In this document: piece by piece, positions 4,013 to 16,265 of the stretch
How positions within the stretch are numbered: the stretch's first letter is position 1
Layout of the letters: every line of letters begins with the position of its first letter
Assembly: GCA_016218495.1 (NCBI GenBank)
Contig: JACRDU010000144.1
Coordinates: forward strand, 1 to 64,000
Origin: Elusimicrobiota bacterium
GTDB lineage: Bacteria > Elusimicrobiota > Elusimicrobia > UBA1565
Direction: 5' to 3'
Length of the DNA: 64,000 nt
Program-made: the position numbers and the translations under genes
The notes under the pieces: generated by a model
Seen by the model: only the letters and a program-made list of their open reading frames with translations
Databases searched by the model: none
What the model was told of the DNA's origin: nothing

Positions 4013-4824
4013 GGGTTGATTCTACAAGACTTCCCGCCGACCAGCCGGAGCGTCCGCCCGGCCCAGTCGCTGGAGACCACCACGGCCCGCGCGGAGCGCG
4101 CCTCCTGCGCCGCCAGCCCGAAGGTCTCCCCGTCCCGCCCCCAATAGGCGGCGGCCCGCCCCAGGAGGCTCCGGTGTTCCCGCCAAGGCGCCGAGACCCT
4201 CAGGCGCGCGGGGACGCCCTCGGCGAGGCGGCGGAATTCCCCCGCCGTCGGTCCCGGGGCCGGCGCCGCCCAGACGAATTCCCAGCCCGGCAGGCGCCCG
4301 GCGCGCCACAGGGCGCTAAAGACACGCAGCATCTCCAGCTCGCCCTTGCCGTCTCCCAGGCGGCCCACCCCAACGATGAGGCGTTCCTTTATAAGGGGGG
4401 GGACGGCGTCCACCGGAGGCTCCAACAGGCCGGCTTCCAGCCCCCAGCGCGCCTTGAGCGCCGCCCGGGTCCGGGCGGAGTTCGCCAACAGGGTCCAGCC
4501 GGCCAGCGGGCGCCGGGCCGGCAGGTAGTGCAGCCAGAGGATGTTCCTGGCGCCCAGGGCCGGGAACTGGTGCGCCGCGCTGGCGTTCACCACCAGCTCG
4601 GCGCGCGGGGCCAGCCGCCGCCAGTCGCCGCCCACCCTCACCCGTCCGGACAAAGACGAGCCGAACAGCCGGTCCAGCCGGCGCGCCCTCGGCAGCGGGC
4701 CCAGGCCCGTCAGCGCCGTCTCCCAGCCTCCGCGCGTCAGCACCTCGGCCAAACGCGCGCAGGCCTTCTCCGTCCCGCCGAGCGCGGAAAGGTGGCCGTC
4801 GAAGACGAGGGCGCGCTTCAGCAC
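4006..4824 (-). CDS. GT4-like glycosyltransferase, short
   Basis: At 272 aa this is shorter than usual GT4 enzymes (350-400 aa). The N-terminus has the GT4 acceptor-side signature FDGHLSALGGTEK, the glycine-rich loop after strand 1. Later segments include an ILWLHYLP strand, LLANSARTR, an IVGVGRLGDGKGE motif starting the donor-binding lobe, and a weak ETFGLAAQEA version of the E-x7-E donor motif near residue 235. The C-terminal helices are trimmed. It overlaps the flanking genes by 7 bp on each side and is the fourth sugar- or methyl-transfer gene of the leftward operon. Likely a cytoplasmic nucleotide-sugar-dependent transferase; sugar and acceptor unknown. Confidence 0.75.
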   Translation of the reverse strand: MLKRALVFDGHLSALGGTEKACARLAEVLTRGGWETALTGLGPLPRARRLDRLFGSSLSGRVRVGGDWRRLAPRAELVVNASAAHQFPALGARNILWLHYLPARRPLAGWTLLANSARTRAALKARWGLEAGLLEPPVDAVPPLIKERLIVGVGRLGDGKGELEMLRVFSALWRAGRLPGWEFVWAAPAPGPTAGEFRRLAEGVPARLRVSAPWREHRSLLGRAAAYWGRDGETFGLAAQEARSARAVVVSSDWAGRTLRLVGGKSCRINPC

Positions 4825-5777
4825 AGGTAGACCGTCGGAGCCGCGCCGCGGGATTCGAGGAAGCGGTTCAGGCGCCCGAAGCCGTCGTAGCGCAGCAGGA
4901 ACACCACGTAGCGGTCGGCGGCGGGCGGAGCCTCGTCGCGGAAGGAGCTCACGCAGCGCTGGCCCAGGGACGCGAAGGCCTGCCGCGCGTTGGCGGCGAA
5001 GGCCCGGGCGGTCTGGTCCCGGGAGTCGCCCCAGACGAGGGCGCCCAGGGTCCCGTCACGCCGCGTGCCGGCCAAGGCGGCGCAGGCCTCCCTCCATGTG
5101 AAGGCCGCGGCGCGCTCCTTCGCGGCGGAGGCCATCCGCTCCCTGAGCGGCGCATCGTTCCATAGGCGCGCGATGGCCCGTGCCAGGGCGGCGGGGTCCT
5201 TCGCCGGGACGAGCAGGGCCTCCTTGCCGTGGCGCACGAGCTCCGGGATGCCCCCCACGCGCGAGGCGACGACGGGCGTGCCCGCCGCCAACGCCTCCAG
5301 GACCACGCCGCCCAGGCTTTCGCGCCGCGACGGCAGGACCAGGAAGTCCGCGCGGCCCATCAGCGGCGGCACGCGGGAGGGGGGCAGCAGGCCGAGGTCC
5401 AGCGGACGCAGGCGCAGGCGCGCCGCGAACCGCGCGAGGCCCCCGCCGGAATCGTCCTGCCCGCACAGGACGAGCGGGACGGCCAGGCCGTCGTCCTCCA
5501 GCCGGCGCAGCGCCATCAGCAGGACGTCGAGGCCCTTGTATTCGGCGTGGCGGGCGGCCGTGAGGATGAAGCGCCGCGGAAGGCCCGCGGGCGCGGCGGC
5601 GCGCGCCAGCGCCGGCTTGCCGTAGTACACGACCCGCGCGCGGCGCGCCGACGGGGCGCGCGCGGCCACGCAGGCGCGCGTCCACCTGGAGTTCGCGAAG
5701 ACGCGCGCGGACCTGAGCAGGCGCTCGGTGCCCCGGGCGTCCCAGCGCGCGGCGGCGCGCTCGCCGGGAGTCCTCAT
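4818..5777 (-). CDS. GT4 glycosyltransferase lacking most of the N-terminal acceptor domain
   Basis: A 319-aa product whose first ~60 residues match only the end of a GT4 N-terminal lobe (RVFANSRWTR, then RARVVYYG). Next comes a complete donor-binding lobe: FILTAARHAEYKGLDVLL, FLVLPSRRESLGGVVLEA with the E-x7-E motif, TPVVASRVGGIPELV and the final helices. About 70 residues follow with no family match, ending VYLC. The ATG at 5777 overlaps the methyltransferase stop as ATGA, so translation does begin here, and no upstream in-frame GT4 sequence is visible inside the methyltransferase. Either the gene was truncated at its 5' end, or it works with a partner GT. Cytoplasmic; substrate unknown. 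Confidence 0.72.
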   Translation of the reverse strand: MRTPGERAAARWDARGTERLLRSARVFANSRWTRACVAARAPSARRARVVYYGKPALARAAAPAGLPRRFILTAARHAEYKGLDVLLMALRRLEDDGLAVPLVLCGQDDSGGGLARFAARLRLRPLDLGLLPPSRVPPLMGRADFLVLPSRRESLGGVVLEALAAGTPVVASRVGGIPELVRHGKEALLVPAKDPAALARAIARLWNDAPLRERMASAAKERAAAFTWREACAALAGTRRDGTLGALVWGDSRDQTARAFAANARQAFASLGQRCVSSFRDEAPPAADRYVVFLLRYDGFGRLNRFLESRGAAPTVYLC

Positions 5778-6373
5778 CGCAGCCGGGCCAGGAAGACCAT
5801 GTGCCCCCAGCGCGAGGAGCGGCCGCGGGTGGAGAACTCGTCGAAGACGAGGACCTCGAAGTCCTCCGCCACCCAGGACAGGAAGCGCTCCGGGTCGAAC
5901 AACGCGAAGGGGCGCGACGGCGTCGAGCAGAGCAACAGCCCGTCTGCGCGGAGCAGGGCCTTGGCGCGGCGCAGGAAGGCGCGCTGGACCGGCGGCTCGA
6001 AGTCGCTGACCACCTGCAGCATGGCGACGAGGCCGTAGCGCGCGCGCGGCTTGAACGTCAGCGCGTTGGCGAGCCTGACGCTGACGCCGGGAAGGCGCGC
6101 CGCGCGCCGCCCGGCGTCGGCCAGCGCGCGTTCGGAGAGGTCCAGGGCGTCCACGCGGCGCGCGGCCTTGGAGAGGGCCGACAGGAAGTGCCCTCCCGCG
6201 CAGCCGACCTCCAGGGCCCGCGGCACGCGCACCCCTTCCAGGGCGCGCGCGTAGCGCGCGAAGCGCAGGCGTCCCGAGCCCACCCGGCGGCTGCGCCAAG
6301 GGTCGCGGTCGCGCGCGTACTTCGCGCCGTAGCCGGCCAGGCGCCAGCGCGACGGGGACACGGTCTCAGGCAT
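5774..6373 (-). CDS. Class I SAM-dependent methyltransferase
   Basis: A 199-aa protein with a canonical Rossmann methyltransferase core: motif I ALEVGCAGGHF at residues 53-63, an acidic strand-2 end (VDALDLSERAL), a motif II-like region (YGLVAMLQVVSDF) and a GGLL-like turn (LLRADGLLLCSTP). It belongs to the Methyltransf_11/23 type often found in glycan and natural-product clusters. It overlaps the GT4 gene upstream by 8 bp and the truncated GT4 downstream by 4 bp. Probable role: O-, N- or C-methylation of a sugar or of the peptide product. The acceptor cannot be read from sequence. Confidence 0.85.
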   Translation of the reverse strand: MPETVSPSRWRLAGYGAKYARDRDPWRSRRVGSGRLRFARYARALEGVRVPRALEVGCAGGHFLSALSKAARRVDALDLSERALADAGRRAARLPGVSVRLANALTFKPRARYGLVAMLQVVSDFEPPVQRAFLRRAKALLRADGLLLCSTPSRPFALFDPERFLSWVAEDFEVLVFDEFSTRGRSSRWGHMVFLARLR

Positions 6374-7325
6374 GGTAGAGGGGCTCGAAGGCGGCGGCCG
6401 CCGCGTCCCAGGAGAAGAGCCGCGCGCGGGCCTCGGCCGCGCGGCCGAGCCGGCGGGCCAGCCCGGGGCGCGTCAACAGTGAGCGCAGGGCCCCGGCCAT
6501 GCGCTCGGCGTCCCCCGGGGGGACCAGCAGTCCCGAGCGGCCGTCTTCGACGAGCTCGGGGATGCCCCCGGTGCGCGTGGAGACGACGGCCTTGCCGCGG
6601 GACATGGCCTCGAGCAGGGCGATGGGGAGGTTGTCGCGCCGCGACGGCAGCGCGAAGGCGGCCGCCGCGGACACCTCGCGCGCCAGCGCGCGCGGGGACA
6701 GCTCGCCGAGGAAATCCACCCGGTCCGCCAGGCCCAGGCGGCGTGCGAAGGCGGCGAGCGCGCCGTTCGACTTGTCCCGGCCCGCTAGGCGCAGGCGTGC
6801 CTCGATCCCGGAGTCGGCGAGGCGGGCGAAGGCCATCAGCAGGACGTCCACGCCCTTGTAAGGGGCCAGGCGGGCGGCGCAGAGCACGGAGGGGACCGTG
6901 CGGGCGGGCGCGGCCGGGACTTCGGGGAGCGAGGGGCCGTAGGGATAGACGACGAGCGCGCCGCGGGCCAGGGAGGGGGCCAGCCGGGCGAACTCGCGCT
7001 TCTGGGCGCGGCAGACCAGGGTCAGCGGGCCCAGGCGCGCGAGGCGCCGCAGGGTCCCGAGCCCGCCCGCGAAGCGCAGGTAGTCCTCGAGGACCAGGTG
7101 CAGCGTCGTCACCACGCGCCAGCGGCGGCGTTCCGCTCGGGCGATGAAAGGCCGGGGGTCCCGGCCGAAGAGGTTGAGGTGCCAGGCGTCGGCGCGCGCC
7201 GGCGCGCGCCCGGGGCCGGCCGCGGTCACGGAGTGGCCGCGCGCGCGAAGCGCGCCGCCCAGGCCCCGTTCCACGGCACGGTCGGTGGGGTCGGCCGGGT
7301 CGAGCCAGGCCAGGCCGACGCGCAT
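6366..7325 (-). CDS. GT4 family glycosyltransferase
   Basis: A 319-aa full GT4 enzyme. The N-terminal lobe begins MRVGLAWLDPADPTDRAVE and continues with a glycine-rich GLGGALRARGH loop. The donor lobe has VLCAARLAPYKGVDVLL, then FALPSRRDNLPIALLEAMSRG with the E-x7-E-type motif, VVSTRTGGIPELVEDG, and the usual final helix. The start at 7325 is shared with the stop of the 35-aa peptide gene (TGATG), so the two are translationally coupled. Its first 30 residues closely resemble those of the GT4 at 12131-13084 in the divergent operon, so the two are probably paralogues. Substrate unknown. Confidence 0.87.
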   Translation of the reverse strand: MRVGLAWLDPADPTDRAVERGLGGALRARGHSVTAAGPGRAPARADAWHLNLFGRDPRPFIARAERRRWRVVTTLHLVLEDYLRFAGGLGTLRRLARLGPLTLVCRAQKREFARLAPSLARGALVVYPYGPSLPEVPAAPARTVPSVLCAARLAPYKGVDVLLMAFARLADSGIEARLRLAGRDKSNGALAAFARRLGLADRVDFLGELSPRALAREVSAAAAFALPSRRDNLPIALLEAMSRGKAVVSTRTGGIPELVEDGRSGLLVPPGDAERMAGALRSLLTRPGLARRLGRAAEARARLFSWDAAAAAFEPLYHA

Positions 7326-7432
7326 CAGTCGCCTTCGACGATGGAGAGGACCCCGTGCTTCTCGAGCTTGGGTTTGCGCCACTTCTTCTTGGCGCCCTTC
7401 TTGGGACCCGGCTTCTTCTCTTTCTTCTTCAT
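7325..7432 (-). CDS. 35-aa RiPP-like precursor peptide with lasso-leader-type motif
   Basis: A 35-aa lysine-rich peptide (13 Lys) with no Cys or Thr and a single Ser at position 30. Residues 18-27 read W-R-K-P-K-L-E-K-H-G, matching the Y/W-x2-P-x-L-x3-G motif by which lasso-family leader peptides bind PqqD/B1-type recognition elements. Only eight residues follow the motif Gly, ending EGD, so there is little or no conventional core. The ATG at 7432 overlaps the aminotransferase stop as ATGA, and the stop overlaps the GT4 start as TGATG, so the gene is embedded in the operon and not a chance ORF. A PqqD-like protein and a radical SAM enzyme are encoded just upstream. Calling it a modified substrate is inference from motif and context; a peptide carrier for sugars is an alternative. 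Confidence 0.7.
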   Translation of the reverse strand: MKKKEKKPGPKKGAKKKWRKPKLEKHGVLSIVEGD

Positions 7433-8562
7433 GGTCGACCTCGGAAGCGGCGCACGGCCTCGGCGACGCGCTCCGTCTCGGAGGCGCTGAGGCCGGGGGA
7501 GAACGGCAGATAGGCGTAGTCCTTGTAAAGGCGCTCGGCGACGGGCAGCCTCCTGCGGAACGGGGCGCAGAGGCGGTAGAGGTGGACCGGATAGAGCCAG
7601 GCCTCGGTGTCTATCCCGCGCGCCCGGAGGAACCGCGCCAGCAGCCCTCCGCGGCCGCCGGCGGCCCGCACGGCGAAGTGCGAGGCCCCCGGGACGCTCC
7701 CGGGGGAAGCCTCGCTCAGGCGCAGCGACGGGTGGCCCGCCAGCGCCTCGCGGTAGAGCCGCGCGGTCCGCTCGAGCCGGCGGCGCGTCTCGGGCCAGCG
7801 CGAGAGCTGGCATAGCCCCAGGGCCGCGGCCAGGTCGTTCATGCGGCAATGCCACCCCGCGGCGCGCACGCCGGAGGGGCTCCCGGCGAAGCCGGTCCCT
7901 TCGGCCTCGTGGCCGAGGCGGCGCATGCGGGCCAGCGGCTTCTCCCACGCCGGGTCTTTGAAGACGACGGCCCCGCCGTCCACGGTGGTGGGGTTCTTGA
8001 AGCGGCCGAAGCTGAAGCATCCGGCGTCCCCGACGCTGCCGAGCGGCCGGCCGTGATAGGCGCCTCCCACGGCCTGGCAGCAGTCCTCGACGAGGGCGGC
8101 TCCGTTCCGGCGCGCCAGGGCCCTGAGCGGGGCGAGGTCGGCGGGATGGCCGTGCAGGTGGACGGCGAGGATGGCGCGGGTGCGCGGGGTGAGCGCGGCC
8201 TCGGCGGCGGCCGGGTCCAACGTGCCGCGCTCGGGTTCCACGTCGGCGAAGACCGGCCGCGCCCCGGCGTGCAGGATGGCCTGGACCGTCCCTACGTCGG
8301 TGAGGGGGGAGGTGACGACCTCTCCGCCGCGCGCCCCGGCGGCTTCGAGGGCGAGGTGGAGCGCGGCCGTCCCCGAGTTCGTCGCCGCGCAGCGCCGCGC
8401 GCCGGCGAAGGCCGCGAAGCGGGCCTCGAAGAGGCGGCCGTACACCCCCGTCCCGACCCAGCCGCTGGCCAGGGCCTCGGCGACGGCCCGGGCCTCGGCG
8501 CGCCCTAGCGGGGAGCGGAAGTGAGGGACGCGGGGAGGGCGCTTTGCTTGGAGCGTTTCCAT
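7429..8562 (-). CDS. DegT/DnrJ/EryC1 family PLP-dependent aminotransferase
   Basis: A 377-aa sugar-aminotransferase-type enzyme. Motifs in order: ATNSGTAALHLAL near residues 60-72 (PLP phosphate site), VFADVEPERGTLDP, ALVEDCCQAVGG near 155-166 (PLP ring and pyridine contacts) and GDAGCFSFGRFKNPT with Lys189 as the expected Schiff-base lysine. The C-terminal domain is typical. The ATG at 8562 has a good AGGAGG ribosome site about 11 bases upstream; it overlaps the radical SAM gene by 58 bp. Family members usually make amino sugars as nucleotide-sugar donors, which would suit the neighbouring glycosyltransferases, but some DegT-like proteins act in natural-product pathways. Substrate not determinable. 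Confidence 0.9.
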   Translation of the reverse strand: METLQAKRPPRVPHFRSPLGRAEARAVAEALASGWVGTGVYGRLFEARFAAFAGARRCAATNSGTAALHLALEAAGARGGEVVTSPLTDVGTVQAILHAGARPVFADVEPERGTLDPAAAEAALTPRTRAILAVHLHGHPADLAPLRALARRNGAALVEDCCQAVGGAYHGRPLGSVGDAGCFSFGRFKNPTTVDGGAVVFKDPAWEKPLARMRRLGHEAEGTGFAGSPSGVRAAGWHCRMNDLAAALGLCQLSRWPETRRRLERTARLYREALAGHPSLRLSEASPGSVPGASHFAVRAAGGRGGLLARFLRARGIDTEAWLYPVHLYRLCAPFRRRLPVAERLYKDYAYLPFSPGLSASETERVAEAVRRFRGRP

Positions 8563-9818
8563 AGGGCTCTTGCCTCCTGGCGCAGGCGCCCGACGGCGGC
8601 GGTGCTGAGCGGGCCGCTGGGCATCGACGGCACGGAGGCGGTGAGGCGCAGCGCGCGGCCGCCCGGGACCAGGCCGCGCCGTCTGGCGAAGGTCTCCAGG
8701 GCCGTTCCCGGAAACGGGCTGGCGCAGGAGAACGAGGCCGCATTGGTGCCCAAGGAGAGGGCGAAGTCCATGGTGGCCCGCGCCTCGGCCTCGGTCTCGC
8801 CGGGCAGCCCCAGCATGTAGAGCGCGTAGGTGAGCATCCCGTGGCGCTTGAGCAGGGCGACCTGCTCCCGGATGCGCTCCGGGGCCAGCGGGGAGCGGCC
8901 GGCCGAGCGCAGGACCCGGGCCGACACCGACTCGACGCCGAACTCCACGCGGATGCAGCCCGCGCGGGCCATCGCGGCGACCAGCTCCGCGTCGAGCGCC
9001 TCGAGCCGGGTCTCGCAGCCCCACAGCACGGGGCTGCCGGCCGCCTCGAGCGCGGCGCACAACGCCAGGGTCCGGTCCCGGTCGATGGTGAAGAAGGGGT
9101 CCCGGCAGAGCACGAAGGGCGCGCGCAGGCGGCGCAGGGAGCGGAATTCCTCGACGACGGACGCGAGGGGGCGCGCCCGGACCGCCCGCCCCTGCGTGAC
9201 GGGGTACGGGCAGTAAGAGCAGCCGACCGGGCAGCCCCAGGCCGTCTGGGCCGTCAGATAGGAGTAGCGCCGCCATGGCGCCATGTCCCAGCGCGGGGGC
9301 GGGAGCAGGTCCACGTCGGCGAAGCGGGGCGCGGGGAGCGGGCGGCCGGGGAGCGCCAGGCCGTCGACGGCCTTCAGGCGGCCGAGGCGGGCGAGGTCGC
9401 CGAAGACGGGCGGCGCCTCGCCGACGACGACGGCGTCGAGGCCGGCCGCGAAGGCGGCCTCGCGCTCGTGCGCGGCCTGCGGGCCGAAGAGGACGACCGG
9501 GACGCGCAGCGCGCCGCGCAGGCGGACGGCCAAGGCGAGGTCGTGGGGCGCCGAGCCCGAGCCCACGCGCAGCGCGACCAGGTCGGCCTGCCGGGAGCGG
9601 GCGGCGGCCACCGCCTCGGTGGGGGTGTGGTCCAGCAGCACGGAGTCCTGGACCCGGACCTCGGCGCCGGAACGCTCGGCCCATGCGGCGGCGTGGAAGA
9701 GGTCGAGGGTCGGGGTCTTGAGCCGGCTCTCGTGGCAGAACTCCCCGAAGCCCCCGTGGGCGTGCTTGAAGCTGACGAAGCCCGGAGGGCTGGGGGGGTC
9801 GAGGAAGAGGATCCTCAT
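8505..9818 (-). CDS. B12-binding radical SAM protein
   Basis: A 437-aa protein. Residues 1-150 form a cobalamin-binding-like Rossmann domain starting MRILFLDPPSPP, with VLFGPQAAH and a GLDAVVVGEAP motif. The radical SAM core has C196, C200 and C203 in GCPVGCSYCPYP for the 4Fe-4S cluster, then LCRDPFFTID, LEALDAELVAAMARAGC, VEFGVES and YMLGLPGETE motifs typical of B12-rSAM enzymes of the BchE/methyltransferase group. It overlaps the PqqD-like gene as ATGA. With that partner and the 35-aa peptide it could be a peptide-modifying enzyme (for example C-methylation), but B12-rSAM proteins also act on lipids and sugars, so peptide substrate is inferred. Confidence 0.88.
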   Translation of the reverse strand: MRILFLDPPSPPGFVSFKHAHGGFGEFCHESRLKTPTLDLFHAAAWAERSGAEVRVQDSVLLDHTPTEAVAAARSRQADLVALRVGSGSAPHDLALAVRLRGALRVPVVLFGPQAAHEREAAFAAGLDAVVVGEAPPVFGDLARLGRLKAVDGLALPGRPLPAPRFADVDLLPPPRWDMAPWRRYSYLTAQTAWGCPVGCSYCPYPVTQGRAVRARPLASVVEEFRSLRRLRAPFVLCRDPFFTIDRDRTLALCAALEAAGSPVLWGCETRLEALDAELVAAMARAGCIRVEFGVESVSARVLRSAGRSPLAPERIREQVALLKRHGMLTYALYMLGLPGETEAEARATMDFALSLGTNAASFSCASPFPGTALETFARRRGLVPGGRALRLTASVPSMPSGPLSTAAVGRLRQEARALWKRSKQSALPASLTSAPR

Positions 9819-10102
9819 GCCGGCTCGAGCAGTCCTTCCTTCCTGAGCGCCGCCGCCAGCTCCCCCACGTCGGCGGCGATGGCGGCCGGCGGCGCGTCGT
9901 ATTCGTCGCAGAGCGCCGCGGCGACCTGCGACGGGGAGCGGCCATGCGCGAACAGCTCCCAGGCGCGCAGGCCGGTGCCGGCCAGGGAGAAATAGTGCGC
10001 CGTGTCGGTGTCGAGGATGACGGCCTCCTCGGCCACCTTGCGCCAGGCCACGCGGCGGGCGTGCCTGAGGGGTCCGCCGCCTTTGAGAGCTGTCTTCGCC
10101 AT
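9815..10102 (-). CDS. PqqD family peptide-recognition (RRE) protein
   Basis: A 95-aa protein matching PqqD-like RiPP recognition elements: an AWRKVAEEAVILDTD start to the strand region, YFSLAGTGLRAWELF (the conserved L-x-G-x3-W-x-L motif), a helix with SPSQVAAALCDEY, and DVGELAAALRKEGLL at the end. Such domains bind leader peptides and present them to partner enzymes. It is the first gene of the leftward operon, directly coupled to the radical SAM gene, and three genes upstream of the candidate leader peptide. HPr-kinase-like genes accompany PqqD proteins in described HPr-rel-A type loci, and one lies across the divergent promoter here. The N-terminal 15 residues are Lys/Arg-rich. Confidence 0.88.
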   Translation of the reverse strand: MAKTALKGGGPLRHARRVAWRKVAEEAVILDTDTAHYFSLAGTGLRAWELFAHGRSPSQVAAALCDEYDAPPAAIAADVGELAAALRKEGLLEPA

Positions 10103-10143: not shown

Positions 10144-11130
10144 ATGCCTCCCCCCGCCGCGCGTCCGGCGCTCAGCGTCATCATCCTCGGCACGCGCCGC
10201 GCCGCCCTCGCCCGCTGCCTGCAGAGCCTGGCCGCCGCGCGGGGCCCCCGCCCCGCCGAGGTCGTCGTCGTCCTCAACGGCGCCCCGGGGGTCTCCCTGG
10301 CCGACCTGGCGCCCTGGCGCCGCTCCTTGGCCCTCTGCGTCCTGGCTATGCCGGCGGCGCCGTTGGGGCGGGCGCGCAACGCCGCGCTCCGGGTGACGCG
10401 CGGGGAGGTCGTGCTGTTCCTCGACGACGACGTGGTCGTGCCGCCGGACTTCCTCGAGAACCTCGCGCGCAAGGCCTCAGAGTACCCGGCCGCCGCGGCG
10501 CTGGGGGGCCCCAACCGGACCCCGCCCGGAAGCCCCCGGTTCGCGCGCTGGGCGGGGGCGCTCCTGTCGAGCGCGGCGGGGGCCGGTCCGATGCGCCGGC
10601 GCTACGCGGGCTTCCCGGTCGACACCTGGGCCGACGACGCCTCTTTGATGCTCTGCAACCTGGCCGTCCGGCGCAGCGCCCTCGAGGAGGAGGGCCTCGA
10701 GTTCCCGGAGCACCTCGACCGCAACGAGGAGAACTTCCTCCTCGATGGTCTGCGCCGGCGCGGCCGCCGGGCCCTGCACAGCCCCGACCTGGCCGTCGAC
10801 CACGAGCGGCGCGCCACCCTGCGGGGTTTCCTGCGCCAGTGCGCCCTCTCCGGCCTGGGCCGTGGGCAGATGACGCGCCGGGCTCCCTTCTCCCTGCGCC
10901 CCCACCACGCGGCGCCGCTGGTCCTGGTCTGCGCGGCGGCCGCGGCCGGTCCGTTGCGCCCCGGGGGGGTCGCCCTGACGGCGGCTTACGCGCTGCTGGC
11001 GGCTGTGTCCGCATGGAGCGCGCAGCGGGGCTTCGTCGACCGCGCCGCCGTGGCCTGCCTGATGCCGGCGGCCCACCTGGCCTACGCCGCGGGGTTTGCC
11101 GCCGGCCTGGCCGGAGCGCGGACCCGGTGA
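10144..11130 (+). CDS. GT2 family glycosyltransferase with C-terminal membrane segments
   Basis: A 328-aa GT-A fold enzyme: ALSVIILGTRRAALARCLQSL opens the Rossmann core, VVVVLNGAP and GRARNAALRVTRGEVVLFLDDDVVVPPDF give the nucleotide-sugar site with the DDD metal motif near residues 99-101, and HLDRNEENFLLDGLRRRGRR resembles the ED-type catalytic motif. The last ~75 residues are hydrophobic and would form two or three membrane helices, so it acts at the cytoplasmic membrane, probably on a lipid-linked or membrane-bound acceptor. It is the first gene of the rightward operon; its stop overlaps the next GTG start. Confidence 0.85.
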   Translation: MPPPAARPALSVIILGTRRAALARCLQSLAAARGPRPAEVVVVLNGAPGVSLADLAPWRRSLALCVLAMPAAPLGRARNAALRVTRGEVVLFLDDDVVVPPDFLENLARKASEYPAAAALGGPNRTPPGSPRFARWAGALLSSAAGAGPMRRRYAGFPVDTWADDASLMLCNLAVRRSALEEEGLEFPEHLDRNEENFLLDGLRRRGRRALHSPDLAVDHERRATLRGFLRQCALSGLGRGQMTRRAPFSLRPHHAAPLVLVCAAAAAGPLRPGGVALTAAYALLAAVSAWSAQRGFVDRAAVACLMPAAHLAYAAGFAAGLAGARTR

Positions 11131-12134
11131 GCGTCGCCGCCCCCGCGTACAGCGCCTGCTTCACGGCTTACGGCGCGCGGGTAGGCGTGGACGGGGAGGC
11201 CGGCCCCGTCGAAGACCTGGGAAGGGACTTCGCCGGCTTCCCGGCCGGTGCCGCGGCCGGGGCGGACATACGCCTGACGCTCCGCTTGGCGGCTTTTCCC
11301 TTGACCGTCGGACCGCGCCGCCGCTCCTGGCGGGGCTGCCGATGGTCGGACGCGGGCGCCGTACGGACGCTCGAATATCCGGACCGTTCCGGCGCCGTCT
11401 GGGACTACTCCCAGGAGGAGGGCGCCCTGTGGTCGCCCCGCCGGGAGACCCTCCATGAGCTGGCCTATCTCTTCGTGCATTCGCGCCTGGGGGCGCGGCT
11501 CGACGGCCGCGGATTGCACCGCGCACATGCCCTCGGCCTCGCGTGGCGCGGGGCCGGCGCTCTGGTCTTCCTGCCGGAGGGCGGGGGCAAGACCACTTTG
11601 GCCCTGCACCTGGCCTGCCGGCGCGAGTTCGCCCTGTTGTCCGACGACATCCCGCTGGTCTCCGCGTCGGGCACGGTCCTGCACGCCTTCCCGCAGCGGC
11701 TCTCCCTGCGGGGCGCGGCGCCGTTCCCCGTCCCGGCGGGGGCGGTCCGCCCGTTCCCGCGGCGCCTCCACGGGCTCAAGAGCCTGCTCGACCTCGGGGC
11801 GTTTCCGGGCGGGTTGGCCCGATGCGCGCCCGCGCGCTGGGTCTTCGTGGGACTGAGGAGCCCCGGAGCTCCGAGCATCCGCCCCTGCCCGTCCGGGCGC
11901 GTCCTGCCCGCCGTGCTGGAGGGACTGGTCGCGGGGGTGGGGACGCCCCAGGTCCTCGAGCTGATGGCGCCCTCTTCCCTGGCGCAGGCCGCCGCCCTGG
12001 CGCGGACGGCCGCGTCCCGCCTGGCCGCTTCGGCCCGCCTGCTGAGCCGCGCGCGGACGGCGCTCTTCAAGACGGGCGACGACCCCGCCGCCGCCGCGCG
12101 GGCGCTGGCCGATTTCCTCGACGCGCGGCGATGA
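11127..12134 (+). CDS. HPr-kinase-related P-loop protein (HprK-like)
   Basis: A 335-aa protein starting at GTG 11127 (GTGA overlap with the GT2 stop). After a ~130-residue N-terminal domain, a P-loop PEGGGKTT lies at residues 150-157 with Lys156, followed by FALLSDDIPL (residues 168-177), a hallmark of HPr-kinase-like proteins, and a C-terminal domain with SLRGAAPFP. It lacks the full-length canonical HprK/P architecture and resembles HprK-related proteins found with PqqD proteins in polysaccharide and lasso-peptide clusters. Homologous kinases phosphorylate a Ser near the C-terminus of some lasso precursors; Ser30 of the 35-aa peptide would be the only Ser/Thr target. Substrate is inference. 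Confidence 0.8.
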   Translation: MSVAAPAYSACFTAYGARVGVDGEAGPVEDLGRDFAGFPAGAAAGADIRLTLRLAAFPLTVGPRRRSWRGCRWSDAGAVRTLEYPDRSGAVWDYSQEEGALWSPRRETLHELAYLFVHSRLGARLDGRGLHRAHALGLAWRGAGALVFLPEGGGKTTLALHLACRREFALLSDDIPLVSASGTVLHAFPQRLSLRGAAPFPVPAGAVRPFPRRLHGLKSLLDLGAFPGGLARCAPARWVFVGLRSPGAPSIRPCPSGRVLPAVLEGLVAGVGTPQVLELMAPSSLAQAAALARTAASRLAASARLLSRARTALFKTGDDPAAAARALADFLDARR

Positions 12135-13084
12135 GGATAGCGCTGGTCGTCCCGGACCCCGCCGACCCGGCGCACGCCGCGCTGCTGAGGGGTCTGGGCG
12201 GGGCGCTGCGCCGCCGCGGCCACGGCGTCGGGAGAGGCCTGGCGGGAGCCCCGCCCGATGTCATCCATCTCCACGTGTTCAGCCGAGGCTGTTCCCGGCT
12301 GGCTTCGCTGCGGCTCCCCGAGGGGTGCGCCCTGGTCGTGACCAGCCAGGGCGCCTCACGGGACCTCATCGACGACAGGGCTTCTTTTTCCCGCCTTCTG
12401 CGGCGGGCCGATGCCGTCACGGCGGTCTCCCGCGCGGGCCTGGCGCAATTGCGCTCGGCCGGCTTCTCCGTCCCCAATGGGACCGAGACCGGGCGCGCTG
12501 CGGCGCCCAGAGCCGGCCCGGACTTCCTGACCGTCGGGCGCTTGGCGGCCTACAAGGGGCTCGACGTCATGGCGCTGGCTTTCGCCGGGCTTCCCGGCCG
12601 GCCGGTCTGGACCGTGGTCGGGCCCGACCAGACCGGCGGGCGCTTCGCGGCTTTCTTGGCCCGCCTTGGGGTGGCGGACCGGGTCGTCTTGACCGGGAGC
12701 CTGCCTCCGGGGCGGGTCAGACGCCTCATGGATTCGGCCCGGGTCTTCGTGCAGCCCTCGCGGGCCGAGAACATGCCGATGGCCCTGCTGGAGGCGATGG
12801 CCTCGGGGGCGGCCTGCGCGGCCTCCGACATCCCCGGCTGCCGCGAGACGCTGGGCAGGGCGGGACGCTTCTTCCGGGCGGGGGACGCGCGCGCCCTCGG
12901 CCGGGTCCTGGGGGGGTTGCTGGCCGACCCCGCCCTGCGCCGGGAGCTCGGCGCCCGCGCGCGCCGGCGCGCCGAGGCCTTCACCTGGGACGCGGCGGCC
13001 CGGCGCTACGAGGTGGTCTATGAGTACGCGCGGGCGCGGGCGCGCCCGCGTCGGACCTGCGCTGACCAGAGTCCGCTTGCTTGA
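12131..13084 (+). CDS. GT4 family glycosyltransferase
   Basis: A 317-aa GT4 enzyme starting at ATG 12131 with an ATGA overlap. It begins MRIALVVPDPADPAHAALL with a GLGGALRRRGH loop, very like the GT4 at 6366-7325. Further motifs: VIHLHVF, DAVTAVSRAGLAQL, FLTVGRLAAYKGLDVMALA, VFVQPSRAENMPMALLEAMASG with the E-x7-E-type donor motif, and a final AEAFTWDAAARRYE helix. The acceptor lobe is compact. Third and last gene of the rightward operon; cytoplasmic, substrate unknown. The pair of paralogous GT4s on either side of the divergent promoter suggests duplication inside the cluster. Confidence 0.87.
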   Translation: MRIALVVPDPADPAHAALLRGLGGALRRRGHGVGRGLAGAPPDVIHLHVFSRGCSRLASLRLPEGCALVVTSQGASRDLIDDRASFSRLLRRADAVTAVSRAGLAQLRSAGFSVPNGTETGRAAAPRAGPDFLTVGRLAAYKGLDVMALAFAGLPGRPVWTVVGPDQTGGRFAAFLARLGVADRVVLTGSLPPGRVRRLMDSARVFVQPSRAENMPMALLEAMASGAACAASDIPGCRETLGRAGRFFRAGDARALGRVLGGLLADPALRRELGARARRRAEAFTWDAAARRYEVVYEYARARARPRRTCADQSPLA

Positions 13085-13105
13085 CCCCTTCAATCCGCCT
13101 ATACT
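13077..13105 (+). promoter_or_regulatory. Sigma70-type promoter of the pilin-like operon
   Basis: TTGCTT at 13077-13082 and TATACT at 13100-13105 are separated by exactly 17 bp, close to the consensus. The expected start of transcription is near 13112, giving a leader of about 23 nt before the ATG at 13135. The -35 lies inside the end of the GT4 gene, so the pilin operon is transcribed independently of the glycosyltransferase operon. Confidence 0.72.
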
Positions 13106-13134
13106 CCCGATGCGGGCCCGGACCGGCCCGCGGC

Positions 13135-15780
13135 ATGGATAGGACCCTCCATCCGGGGGCGCGGCGCCCCGAAATCGGCATGAGCCTCGTGGAGCTGATG
13201 GTGGCCGTCTCCATCATCTCCATCGGGCTCCTGGCGTTCACCTCCTCGTTCCGCTTCATCAGCCATTCCATCCGGGACTCCCGGGCCCGCTCCCTGGCCA
13301 TCAGCCTCGCCCAGGAGAAGATCGAGAACCTCAAGGACATCCCCTACCACAAGCTGCAGCTGACCACGGTGACGGTCACCAACTCCCACTTCTCCCCGGC
13401 CATCACCTACGACGCCATCAACTATCCCCCCGAGACCATCCGCATCGGCGGCATCACCTATACCCGGGGCATGTACGTCTCGCTGACCCGGCTGACCGAC
13501 AACGAGATCACGGCCACGTCGAGCCTCTATCCGGATTCCGGGCTCAAGTTCGTCACCACCTACGTGATGTGGGAGCAGCGCGGGGAGTGGAAGAAGTACG
13601 AGCTCGAGAACCTCTACGAGAACCCCAACGTCGACCCCCTCGACGCCACCCTGCAGGGGGTGGTGAAGACGAGCGCCGGGACAGGCCTGCCCGGGGCGAC
13701 GGTGACCATCCTGGAGAAGCAGGACTGGAACGGGACGAGCGGGACGGGCGGGAGCTACCTCTTCCGCGTCCACGCCGGCACCTATTCGATCCGCGCCTCT
13801 TCGGCCGGGTTCTACGACTCCACCCTGATGAACGTCCTGATCGACGAGGGCGCCCTGCTGACGACGAACTTCTCGCTCATCGCCGTCGGCTCCGGCGCGG
13901 TCAGCGGCAACGTCTTCATCTCCAGCCACCTGGTCGTCTCGCAGGTGGTGGTGGCCACCGACACGCGCGTCGGCGACGCCGGGGACCCGGATGCGACGGC
14001 CGAGGTCGAGTTCGTCATGCTGTTCAACCCGACCACCTACCAGATAGACATGACGGCGAACTGGTGGAACAGCCGCAATGTCCCCTATTACTACAACCCC
14101 CAAGCCGCGACTTCGGTGGGCTGGTGGCAGTTCATGGACGTCATCCATTCCACCTACATCTCCCCCAACCACGGCTATGTCGTCGCCAGTTCCTCCTGGT
14201 TCATGGTCGACAACCAGTGGATCAGGGCCGACGCGAACTACAACAACGTGAACGCGTCCGTCAACGCGGACCTGATGTCCGACGACGGCCCCGGCTCGGT
14301 CATGATCTACGACCCCTTCACGGGCTTCCGCTACGACAAGGTGGGCTGGAGCGGGGACACCTACAACATCACCGCCATCGGCAACTCCTGGTACGAAGGC
14401 ACGCCGCTGGCCGACGCGGCCTGCGCCGACGGCATCGGGAAGGGGAACTTCATCATCCGCTTCTCGAGCCCGGGGGTGATGGGCAGCGGGCAGTACTCCT
14501 GGTCCTACGACACGGGGGACAACTCCGTCGACTTCGTCGGGACGCACGTCGCCTGCGCGGCCGGGGTGCACCATCCCCTGATGGAATGGAACGGGCTCGG
14601 TCCGCTGCGCCCCTTCTCGATGTACGGCAGCTCCCAGACCCAGATCGGGGGCATCCCCGCCGTCAGCGCCTTCGTCATCGCCGACGACCTGCTGGCCCAG
14701 ACCACCATCGCCTACCAGGCCACCCTGACGAACATGTTCGGGCAGGTCCAGCCCTTCGCACGCTACTCCCTGACCGGGGTCTCCACGGGGACCTGGACGG
14801 TGTTCATCGCCACCGGGGATTTCTACACGCAGATCTCCTCCGTCGTAGTCCCGCTGGCCTCGGGGGTCTCCATCCCCAACTCGGTCACGACTCCCGTCCA
14901 GCCCGGCAGCGGGGTCCACATCGCCGCCGCCACCCAGACGGCGGTCGGGGGCTACCTCTCCGGCCTGGTCTTGAACACCGCGGGGAGCGCCATCCCCAAC
15001 ATCTCCGTCATCGCGGGCGGGAACTCCAAGACCACGGGCGCAAACGGGCGTTTCTTCGCCCCCGTCTCCGTCGGGCCGCAGACCCTCATCGTCAACCCGA
15101 ACAACGCCAATTCGGTCTATTCGGAGTATGTGGACGAGGTCACGGTGGCGCGGGGCCAGGTGAATGCCTCCACCATCACCCTGTCGCAGGCCGGGACCCT
15201 GACCGGGTTCATCACCCCGGACGGCACCTCCGGGCTGCCCAACATCGAGGTCACGGCCAACCGCGCCGGCGCCCAGTGGGGCGCCGGCGTCACCGACACC
15301 TCGGGAGCCTTCTACATCAAGAACCTCTCCACCGGCACCTACGACGTCCAGCCCGTGCTCGACCCGCTCGACGTCTGGACGCCCTCCTCCTTCACCGTGA
15401 CGACCCAGGCCTCGAGGATGATCCACGTGGGGACCTTCACCGTGACCGGGGCCGAGGGGAAGCTCGGCGGGGCGGTCACCTACAACGGCAGCGCGGTCAC
15501 CATCGGGGCGCTCATCCTGGTCTCCACCGCCACGCTGCCCTCCACCCCGCCGGCCATCGTGGCCTCGTCCTCCCCGGCCCAGGCCGTCATCTACGCCGCC
15601 TCCAGCAAGGCCGACGGCACCTACCTCCTCGACGTGCGCGGCTCGACCACGACGAGCTACCGCGTCCACGCCTACGTCCCCGTCGTGGGGCCGACCAGCG
15701 TGACCATCAGCACCAAGGTCTACACGGGCGTCATCGTCTATTCCACGGGGACGACGACCTTGAACATCGCGGTGCCATGA
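13135..15780 (+). CDS. Giant type IV prepilin-like protein with carboxypeptidase-regulatory-like repeats
   Basis: An 881-aa protein. Residues 1-15 are a basic prepilin leader ending Ile-Gly; cleavage before Met16 gives MSLVELMVAVSIISIG, with the conserved Glu at +5 and a hydrophobic helix, as in type IV pilins and pseudopilins. Residues about 175-260 form a carboxypeptidase-regulatory-like beta domain (LQGVVKTSAGTGLPGATVTI), then a ~230-residue Trp/Tyr/Asn-rich segment that resembles a lamin-tail-like domain, then three or four more such beta domains to the C-terminus (AGGYLSGLVLN-, GTLTGFITPDGT- and GKLGGAVTYNG-type). Normal pseudopilins are 150-300 aa. Probably a tip or minor pilin displaying adhesive domains. 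The long antisense frame here is compositional. Confidence 0.82.
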   Translation: MDRTLHPGARRPEIGMSLVELMVAVSIISIGLLAFTSSFRFISHSIRDSRARSLAISLAQEKIENLKDIPYHKLQLTTVTVTNSHFSPAITYDAINYPPETIRIGGITYTRGMYVSLTRLTDNEITATSSLYPDSGLKFVTTYVMWEQRGEWKKYELENLYENPNVDPLDATLQGVVKTSAGTGLPGATVTILEKQDWNGTSGTGGSYLFRVHAGTYSIRASSAGFYDSTLMNVLIDEGALLTTNFSLIAVGSGAVSGNVFISSHLVVSQVVVATDTRVGDAGDPDATAEVEFVMLFNPTTYQIDMTANWWNSRNVPYYYNPQAATSVGWWQFMDVIHSTYISPNHGYVVASSSWFMVDNQWIRADANYNNVNASVNADLMSDDGPGSVMIYDPFTGFRYDKVGWSGDTYNITAIGNSWYEGTPLADAACADGIGKGNFIIRFSSPGVMGSGQYSWSYDTGDNSVDFVGTHVACAAGVHHPLMEWNGLGPLRPFSMYGSSQTQIGGIPAVSAFVIADDLLAQTTIAYQATLTNMFGQVQPFARYSLTGVSTGTWTVFIATGDFYTQISSVVVPLASGVSIPNSVTTPVQPGSGVHIAAATQTAVGGYLSGLVLNTAGSAIPNISVIAGGNSKTTGANGRFFAPVSVGPQTLIVNPNNANSVYSEYVDEVTVARGQVNASTITLSQAGTLTGFITPDGTSGLPNIEVTANRAGAQWGAGVTDTSGAFYIKNLSTGTYDVQPVLDPLDVWTPSSFTVTTQASRMIHVGTFTVTGAEGKLGGAVTYNGSAVTIGALILVSTATLPSTPPAIVASSSPAQAVIYAASSKADGTYLLDVRGSTTTSYRVHAYVPVVGPTSVTISTKVYTGVIVYSTGTTTLNIAVP

Positions 15781-16265
15781 GAGACCGGCGCGGCTATTCC
15801 CTGGTCGAGCTGCTGATGGTGGTGGCGATCATCGGCACCATCGCCATGGTGGGGCCGCGCCTGATGATCCAGCTGCAGAACTTCTACCTGCTGACCACGG
15901 CGCGCGCGGAGATCCAGCGCGACGCCCGCGCCACCATCGACGTCATCAACCGCTTCCTGCGCCAGGCCAAGTACTCCACCATCATCATCGACACCCCTTC
16001 GGGGGAGGGGCCCTATTCGCGCATCCGCTTCACGATGATCGACGACCGCGCCGTGGAGTTCTACCAGGACGGGACGAAGCTCTATCAAGTCATCGACGGG
16101 ACCACCAGCGTCACCACGCGGAACCTCGTCTACCTGGCCTTCACCTTCCCGCGCTCGGACTATCCCCGGCTGGTCAGCGTCTCCATCACGATGGGGAAGA
16201 GCACCTACAAGGGCCAGCGCAAGGAGCTGGAGCTGACCGTCCAGAAGATCAGGATCATGAACTGA
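15777..16265 (+). CDS. Type IV prepilin-like protein (GspJ/PilW-like)
   Basis: A 162-aa prepilin: leader MRDRRG, then YSLVELLMVVAIIGTIAM with Glu at +5, followed by an amphipathic helix ARAEIQRDARATIDVINRFLRQA, which is typical of minor pseudopilins of the GspJ/PilW/ComGF type, and a C-terminal beta region. The ATG overlaps the previous stop (ATGA), so it is translationally coupled to the giant prepilin. Likely inserted in the inner membrane, processed by a prepilin peptidase, and part of a tip complex with its neighbours. Confidence 0.85.
   Translation: MRDRRGYSLVELLMVVAIIGTIAMVGPRLMIQLQNFYLLTTARAEIQRDARATIDVINRFLRQAKYSTIIIDTPSGEGPYSRIRFTMIDDRAVEFYQDGTKLYQVIDGTTSVTTRNLVYLAFTFPRSDYPRLVSVSITMGKSTYKGQRKELELTVQKIRIMN

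Follow-up and report, generated by a model that had tools for sequence, protein, structure and literature searches.

A conserved lysine-rich peptide encoded with a PqqD-family protein, a putative HprK-like kinase and glycosyltransferases in Elusimicrobiota

Introduction

The linear polyphosphorylated peptides (LPPs) of Paenibacillus and other Bacillota, described in 2026 (PMC13381572), are the closest known counterparts of the system analyzed here. In the LPP route, an RRE binds a Y/WxxP leader, an HprK-like kinase phosphorylates a serine at Y+18 and an SpI-type peptidase cuts (PMC13381572). LPP precursors follow the consensus YxxPxVLxHQxIxFETxxS, their loci are rich in glycosyltransferase genes and, in the LppB-leader crystal structure, residues past about Y+9 hang free for enzymes (PMC13381572).

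Lasso-type RREs and HprK-like kinases also come together in the phosphorylated lasso peptides (Bsf, paeninodin and pseudomycoidin), which undergo phospho and hexose tailoring (PMC10368454, PMC9266682), and work on the lasso kinase BsfK has shown the importance of its His, GK[ST] and Asp-Asp residues (PMC10368454). Among open papers, we found none on PqqD in Elusimicrobiota.

Results and discussion

The peptide and its operon

The window, the whole 64,000-nucleotide stretch of DNA analyzed here, comes from an Elusimicrobiota MAG and harbors a minus-strand operon in the order PqqD, radical SAM, DegT, peptide, GT4, methyltransferase and more glycosyltransferases. The peptide gene (7325-7432, minus strand) encodes 35 residues, MKKKEKKPGPKKGAKKKWRKPKLEKHGVLSIVEGD, including 13 lysines, a single serine (Ser30) and no Cys, Thr or Tyr, and has no NCBIfam or Pfam match. 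Its product, annotated as a lysine-rich precursor or carrier peptide, contains W18-x2-P21-x-L23-x3-G27, and hence the [YW]xxPx[LVIFAY] lasso leader motif, followed by eight residues and the stop codon. The gene shares an ATGA overlap with the preceding DegT gene and a TGATG junction with the downstream GT4 gene (6366-7327, minus strand; PF00534, 122 bits). Re-reading the sequence reproduced exactly the composition, motif spacing and eight trailing residues given in a preliminary description of this DNA, as well as both of the gene overlaps that it reported.

Downstream of this GT4 gene, the operon continues with a SAM-dependent methyltransferase gene (5774-6373, minus strand; PF13489 and PF08242 above cut-off) and a second GT4 gene with homologues at related loci (4818-5773, minus strand; 5' end approximate). 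On the plus strand, a divergent GT2 gene (10144-11130; PF00535, 57 bits) and a further GT4 gene (12131-13084; PF13692, 84 bits) lie before and after a kinase-like gene. Searches of plasmid records yielded no matches to the PqqD or radical-SAM proteins.

A peptide family across Elusimicrobiota

To survey homologues of the peptide, we performed an alignment search on 341 Elusimicrobiota genomes, several of which are fragmentary MAGs. The tail of the window peptide (K25-HGVLSIVEGD), designated type 1, was found in seven of these genomes from four genera (G000, G001, G002, G004, G011, G015 and G030), so that six relatives share it unchanged. All seven share the same 11 C-terminal residues (KHGVLSIVEGD), in which synonymous differences affect at least seven codons; a TGA or TAG stop stands at the same position throughout, while the lysine-rich front differs in both sequence and length. 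A spurious ORF was ruled out, as the tail codons vary only synonymously among the seven genomes. Because the tail is identical despite this variation, the 35-aa ORF is, on sequence grounds, a real conserved gene rather than a chance reading frame. Ser30, the sole hydroxyl side chain of the window peptide, is also the sole invariant hydroxyl of the type-1 tail. A search for the type-1 tail pattern, to the exclusion of other tail types, across all GTDB genome contigs returned six contigs, five of them from Elusimicrobia and the sixth (L078) probably corresponding to G002.

Roughly 30 further genomes encode [WY]xxPx[LIV]xxHG relatives with other, clade-specific tails. The type-2 tail, HGK[IL]S[ED]VASAFKP, is present in 15 genomes, and the remaining types follow HGxLSxTALAxSY or HGxL...AxF...Y; a lysine-rich start and the [WY]xxPx[LIV]xxHG motif are common to all types. 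Across the 341 genomes, a peptide homologue lies beside PqqD and/or HprK and glycosyltransferase genes in about 35 loci, and one peptide relative weakly matches NF033521/NF033528. On one contig (L124, genome G178), tandem relatives at 466-567 and 668-757 share the same front and bear different tails (HGKITTVAGIIVRE and HGKITKVAGADDDPVR), resembling multi-precursor RiPP clusters, a typical RiPP arrangement. The preliminary description would have been refuted had related genomes shown no short homologous peptides next to their orthologous PqqD genes; the PqqD loci of near relatives do contain such peptides, and its claim survives this check.

Two other members of the survey differ in form. A relative in G013 (L050, 4032-4187), adjoining PqqD and GT4 genes, has a hydrophobic aromatic tail (GGAMAQSWWGWW). 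In G054, a lasso-leader-like lysine-rich N-terminus (YLAPELTAAG; L122, near 9912) is fused to a Peptidase_S74 intramolecular-chaperone domain.

The PqqD protein and the putative kinase

The PqqD-family protein (9815-10102, minus strand; PF05402, 57 bits) has TbiB1 as its best solved match (E = 6e-9) and scores 49 bits against NF033530, below the cut-off of 70. The predicted fold of a PqqD relative superimposes on TbiB1-leader complexes with TM values of 0.85-0.91. A PQQ-type PqqD was rejected, both sequence and fold being closer to lasso RREs, and the comparisons point to a discrete RRE of the lasso B1 type. The peptide family travels with this protein. An aspartate that binds the leader Tyr in LppB is kept in the RREs of both the W- and the Y-peptide groups, and the one change that goes with W, I to A close to the aromatic pocket, is seen in three of three W cases and also in one of four Y cases.

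It is unlikely, in our judgment, that the peptide is an unmodified adaptor, tethering PqqD and any bound enzyme to a glycosyltransferase or, through its lysines, to a membrane or polyanion. The lysine-rich N-terminus of all members, a tail shorter than normal cores and the lack of a leader peptidase at type-1 loci fit such a role. So does an AF2 model of a PqqD-peptide fusion from L124, in which the peptide is undocked (pLDDT 50-66), the model being of an artificial read-through of a type-2-like relative, built as a single chain with two in-frame TGA codons read as Gly. Against an adaptor, however, tail types vary by clade and track different enzyme sets, kinase and glycosyltransferase genes adjoin a peptide with an invariant serine, and RRE proteins otherwise serve modification pathways.

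The kinase gene, which the preliminary description did not include and which changes the interpretation of the locus, is divergent and 1 kb away (11127-12134, plus strand). At the sequence level its product matches HprK families weakly, but the predicted structure (pLDDT 90.9) resembles those of PEPCK and HPrK proteins. The H, GK[ST] and DD residues are invariant or conserved in 16 kinase homologues, and the window protein retains H...GxGKT...DD, with the first P-loop glycine replaced. We consequently annotate the product as a putative HPrK/PEPCK-fold kinase with an intact catalytic motif. Six of the seven type-1 genomes, which include fragmentary MAGs, encode this kinase, adjacent to the peptide locus in four and off-locus in G004 and G015; it was not found in G011.

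The radical-SAM enzyme and the aminotransferase

The gene overlapping PqqD by 4 bp (8505-9818, minus strand) encodes a radical-SAM protein with a CxxxCxxC motif (PF04055, 65 bits) and an N-terminal B12-like domain that scores below threshold (28.6 bits against a cut-off of 32.1). Its closest solved relative, over 370 residues, is AprD4 (6fd2, 1e-46), a dehydratase whose sugar substrate is paromamine (PMC5461906). Unlike AprD4 of the apramycin pathway, it falls short of the diol dehydratase equivalog (NF033070, 180 bits against a cut-off of 500), is tied to an RRE operon and has no AprD3-like reductase or sugar dehydratase in that operon. Since the B12 domain is sub-threshold and AprD4 is nearest, the earlier label of B12-radical SAM stands for the architecture only and does not extend to cobalamin dependence. 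The next operon member toward the peptide is a DegT/DnrJ/EryC1-family aminotransferase (7429-8562, minus strand; PF01041, 290 bits) that resembles PseC and DesI below the equivalog cut-offs. Five type-1 genomes contain it, in G002 it is divided between contigs, and the G030 locus lacks it, so that it is not needed for the type-1 tail.

Radical-SAM relatives at E <= 1e-60 occur in exactly seven of the 341 genomes, the same seven that harbor the type-1 tail, and the near neighbors G003, G005-G007, G009 and G013 have neither. Were the two sets independent at the genus level (4 of 100), the chance of their being identical would be 3e-7, a figure weakened by shared ancestry and operon linkage.

The nearest characterized relatives of both proteins are sugar enzymes, and an alternative with a substantial probability, a little short of even, concerns this step alone: the radical-SAM enzyme and DegT would build or deoxygenate a surface-glycan sugar and never touch the peptide, on which only the kinase and the glycosyltransferases would act. 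This alternative is favored by the likeness to AprD4, by the sugar-aminotransferase character of the DegT families, with PseC and DesI as examples, and by the dispensability of DegT at the G030 locus. Against it stand the strict pairing of the radical-SAM protein with a single peptide tail, the overlap of the radical-SAM gene with PqqD and the missing AprD3-like and dehydratase partners. AprD4 dehydrates a sugar, so the radical-SAM substrate may be a peptide or a sugar.

Relation to described pathways

The type-1 locus resembles the LPP loci in its lasso-type discrete RRE, HprK-like kinase, linear Y/WxxPx[VL]xxH precursor and glycosyltransferase-gene surroundings. No cyclase belongs to the LPP route and none was noticed at the type-1 locus. 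The Y/W, P, V/L, H and I/L positions of the LPP consensus match the type-1 family, whereas Q, FET and the serine at Y+18 do not, the type-1 peptide ending at W+17, short of the LPP phosphoserine. LPPs have an SpI peptidase, an NTP transferase and an MsbA exporter, their cores are long and variable, and phosphoserine lies at Y+18; none of these features is present at the type-1 locus, which is in turn set apart by its invariant nine-residue tail, its AprD4-like radical-SAM enzyme, usually with DegT, and its occurrence in Elusimicrobiota. No match to the SpI-like leader peptidase profile TIGR02228 was found in G000, nor any such peptidase at type-1 loci; loci with other tail types do have weak SpI-like domains. 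Matches to the NTP transferase family (PF14907) lie on other contigs or far away, with none in type-1 clusters. Membership of the LPPs was rejected on the peptidase, the transferase and the phospho-site. By analogy, the LPPs nonetheless appear to be the closest known kind, and the peptide system may work like them as a variant RRE-plus-kinase linear peptide pathway. The earlier statement that the operon matches no named class accordingly needs revising, given that the LPP family has the same RRE and HprK-kinase logic, a similar leader consensus and glycosyltransferase-rich loci.

The phosphorylated lasso peptides share with the type-1 locus the lasso-type RRE and an HprK-like kinase whose catalytic motif is the same, and the type-1 locus can be likened to them in its putative phospho and hexose tailoring. 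Unlike them, type 1 has no ring-forming core and no B2 leader peptidase above cut-off: PF13471 had no match above cut-off in 13 genomes, and none at all in G000. An Asn-synthetase-like macrolactam cyclase, for which no dedicated family profile was used, was not seen among the conserved neighbors or the operon proteins scanned. A lasso peptide was rejected on the B2 result, which also bears out, for the genomes examined, the earlier remark that a leader protease is lacking.

PQQ and mycofactocin resemble the locus in combining a PqqD-like protein, a radical-SAM enzyme and a short peptide, to which mycofactocin adds a glycosyltransferase. We regard it as very improbable that the tail is excised in their manner to yield a small cofactor. 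A short invariant tail beside both PqqD and radical SAM would suit this fate, as would the likeness of the window GT2 to MftF (1e-18), but this GT2 matches EpsD equally well, the PqqD protein is of the lasso type, the radical-SAM enzyme belongs to the AprD4 group and is not a SPASM maturase, and neither a matching peptide tail nor a dedicated peptidase or partner redox enzymes were found here.

A proposed role for the peptide

We propose, as an evenly balanced proposition, that an RRE-directed phospho- or glyco-modification pathway in an Elusimicrobiota surface-glycan locus uses the ribosomally made peptide as its substrate or carrier, like that of LPPs or phosphorylated lasso peptides without ring closure. 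Judging from the motif and the fold, the W/YxxPxL segment would occupy the groove that the PqqD-type RRE offers, so that enzymes could reach the invariant tail GVLSIVEGD, much as the LppB-leader structure shows; by the same analogy, the free part beyond the RRE-bound segment is VLSIVEGD. The HprK-like kinase could then phosphorylate Ser30, and/or the co-translated GT4 could add a sugar there that the GT2 and other glycosyltransferases would extend. If either enzyme acts on a hydroxyl, Ser30 must be the target, because it provides the only such side chain in the window peptide. A tail-specific modification, on the peptide or its sugar, may come from the AprD4-like radical-SAM enzyme, in most cases together with DegT, in keeping with the observed co-occurrence. 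As no leader peptidase is evident, the peptide may either persist uncleaved as a polycationic carrier or be processed by a protease encoded elsewhere. Several observations count against the proposal: the peptide is undocked in the AF2 fusion model, the type-1 peptide stops short of the LPP phosphoserine position, the kinase is away from the locus or not found in three of the seven type-1 genomes, and type-1 loci lack an SpI-type peptidase and an NTP transferase.

For the preliminary view of a carrier or substrate modified by the operon, the RRE and the co-travelling peptide family thus speak in favor, while the radical-SAM enzyme and the aminotransferase may or may not act on the peptide, their nearest characterized relatives being sugar enzymes. 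The suggestion of a leader-only peptide or one with a tiny core fits an invariant tail of just 8-9 residues. More specifically, the peptide might represent a new RiPP-like class in which an uncleaved lysine-rich peptide with an invariant nine-residue micro-core, loaded through RRE, kinase and glycosyltransferase and altered at its tail by the radical-SAM enzyme (with the aminotransferase), serves as an encoded surface-glycan primer; we hold this to be quite unlikely.

The proposed pathway would carry RRE-plus-HprK peptide modification beyond its experimentally established cases, lasso peptides and the LPPs of Bacillota, into Elusimicrobiota, in which the system seems widespread and has several kinds of tail. 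Its small peptides can be tested as substrates for glycan-locus enzymes, and they touch on the question of why peptides of the RRE type are so frequently encoded near polysaccharide genes. The strict pairing of a radical-SAM enzyme with a single tail of ten residues also makes for a compact system in which to look for new peptide or glycopeptide chemistry.

Gene neighborhoods of the peptides

About 20 of 37 loci have a GT4 as the next gene after the peptide (16 assigned by an automatic rule and four with a GT4 ORF overlapping the peptide), and four others have a GT2 there, with GT4 genes making up 10% of those called in peptide-locus regions. The methyltransferase of the window operon has a recovered homologue at only one other type-1 locus (G004). 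Type-2 loci combine PqqD and peptide with a different, SPASM-type-related radical-SAM gene upstream of PqqD. Their peptide gene is followed by a FabD/malonyltransferase-like acyltransferase gene (for example L137, 8881-9867, and L126, 9971-10951), overlapping in several loci, and acylation of the type-2 peptide is conceivable.

Large proteins, beta-helical where scanned, are encoded near peptides of types 2-4 (L134, 12946-16950; L126, 12918-16469; L115, 11125-16707; L056, 12414-16571), and several of them carry an N-terminal SpI-like signal-peptidase domain. In the window, the translation of 13081-16265 shows a large protein that combines carboxypeptidase-regulatory repeats with an N-methylation motif of the prepilin kind, and another prepilin-like reading frame follows it.
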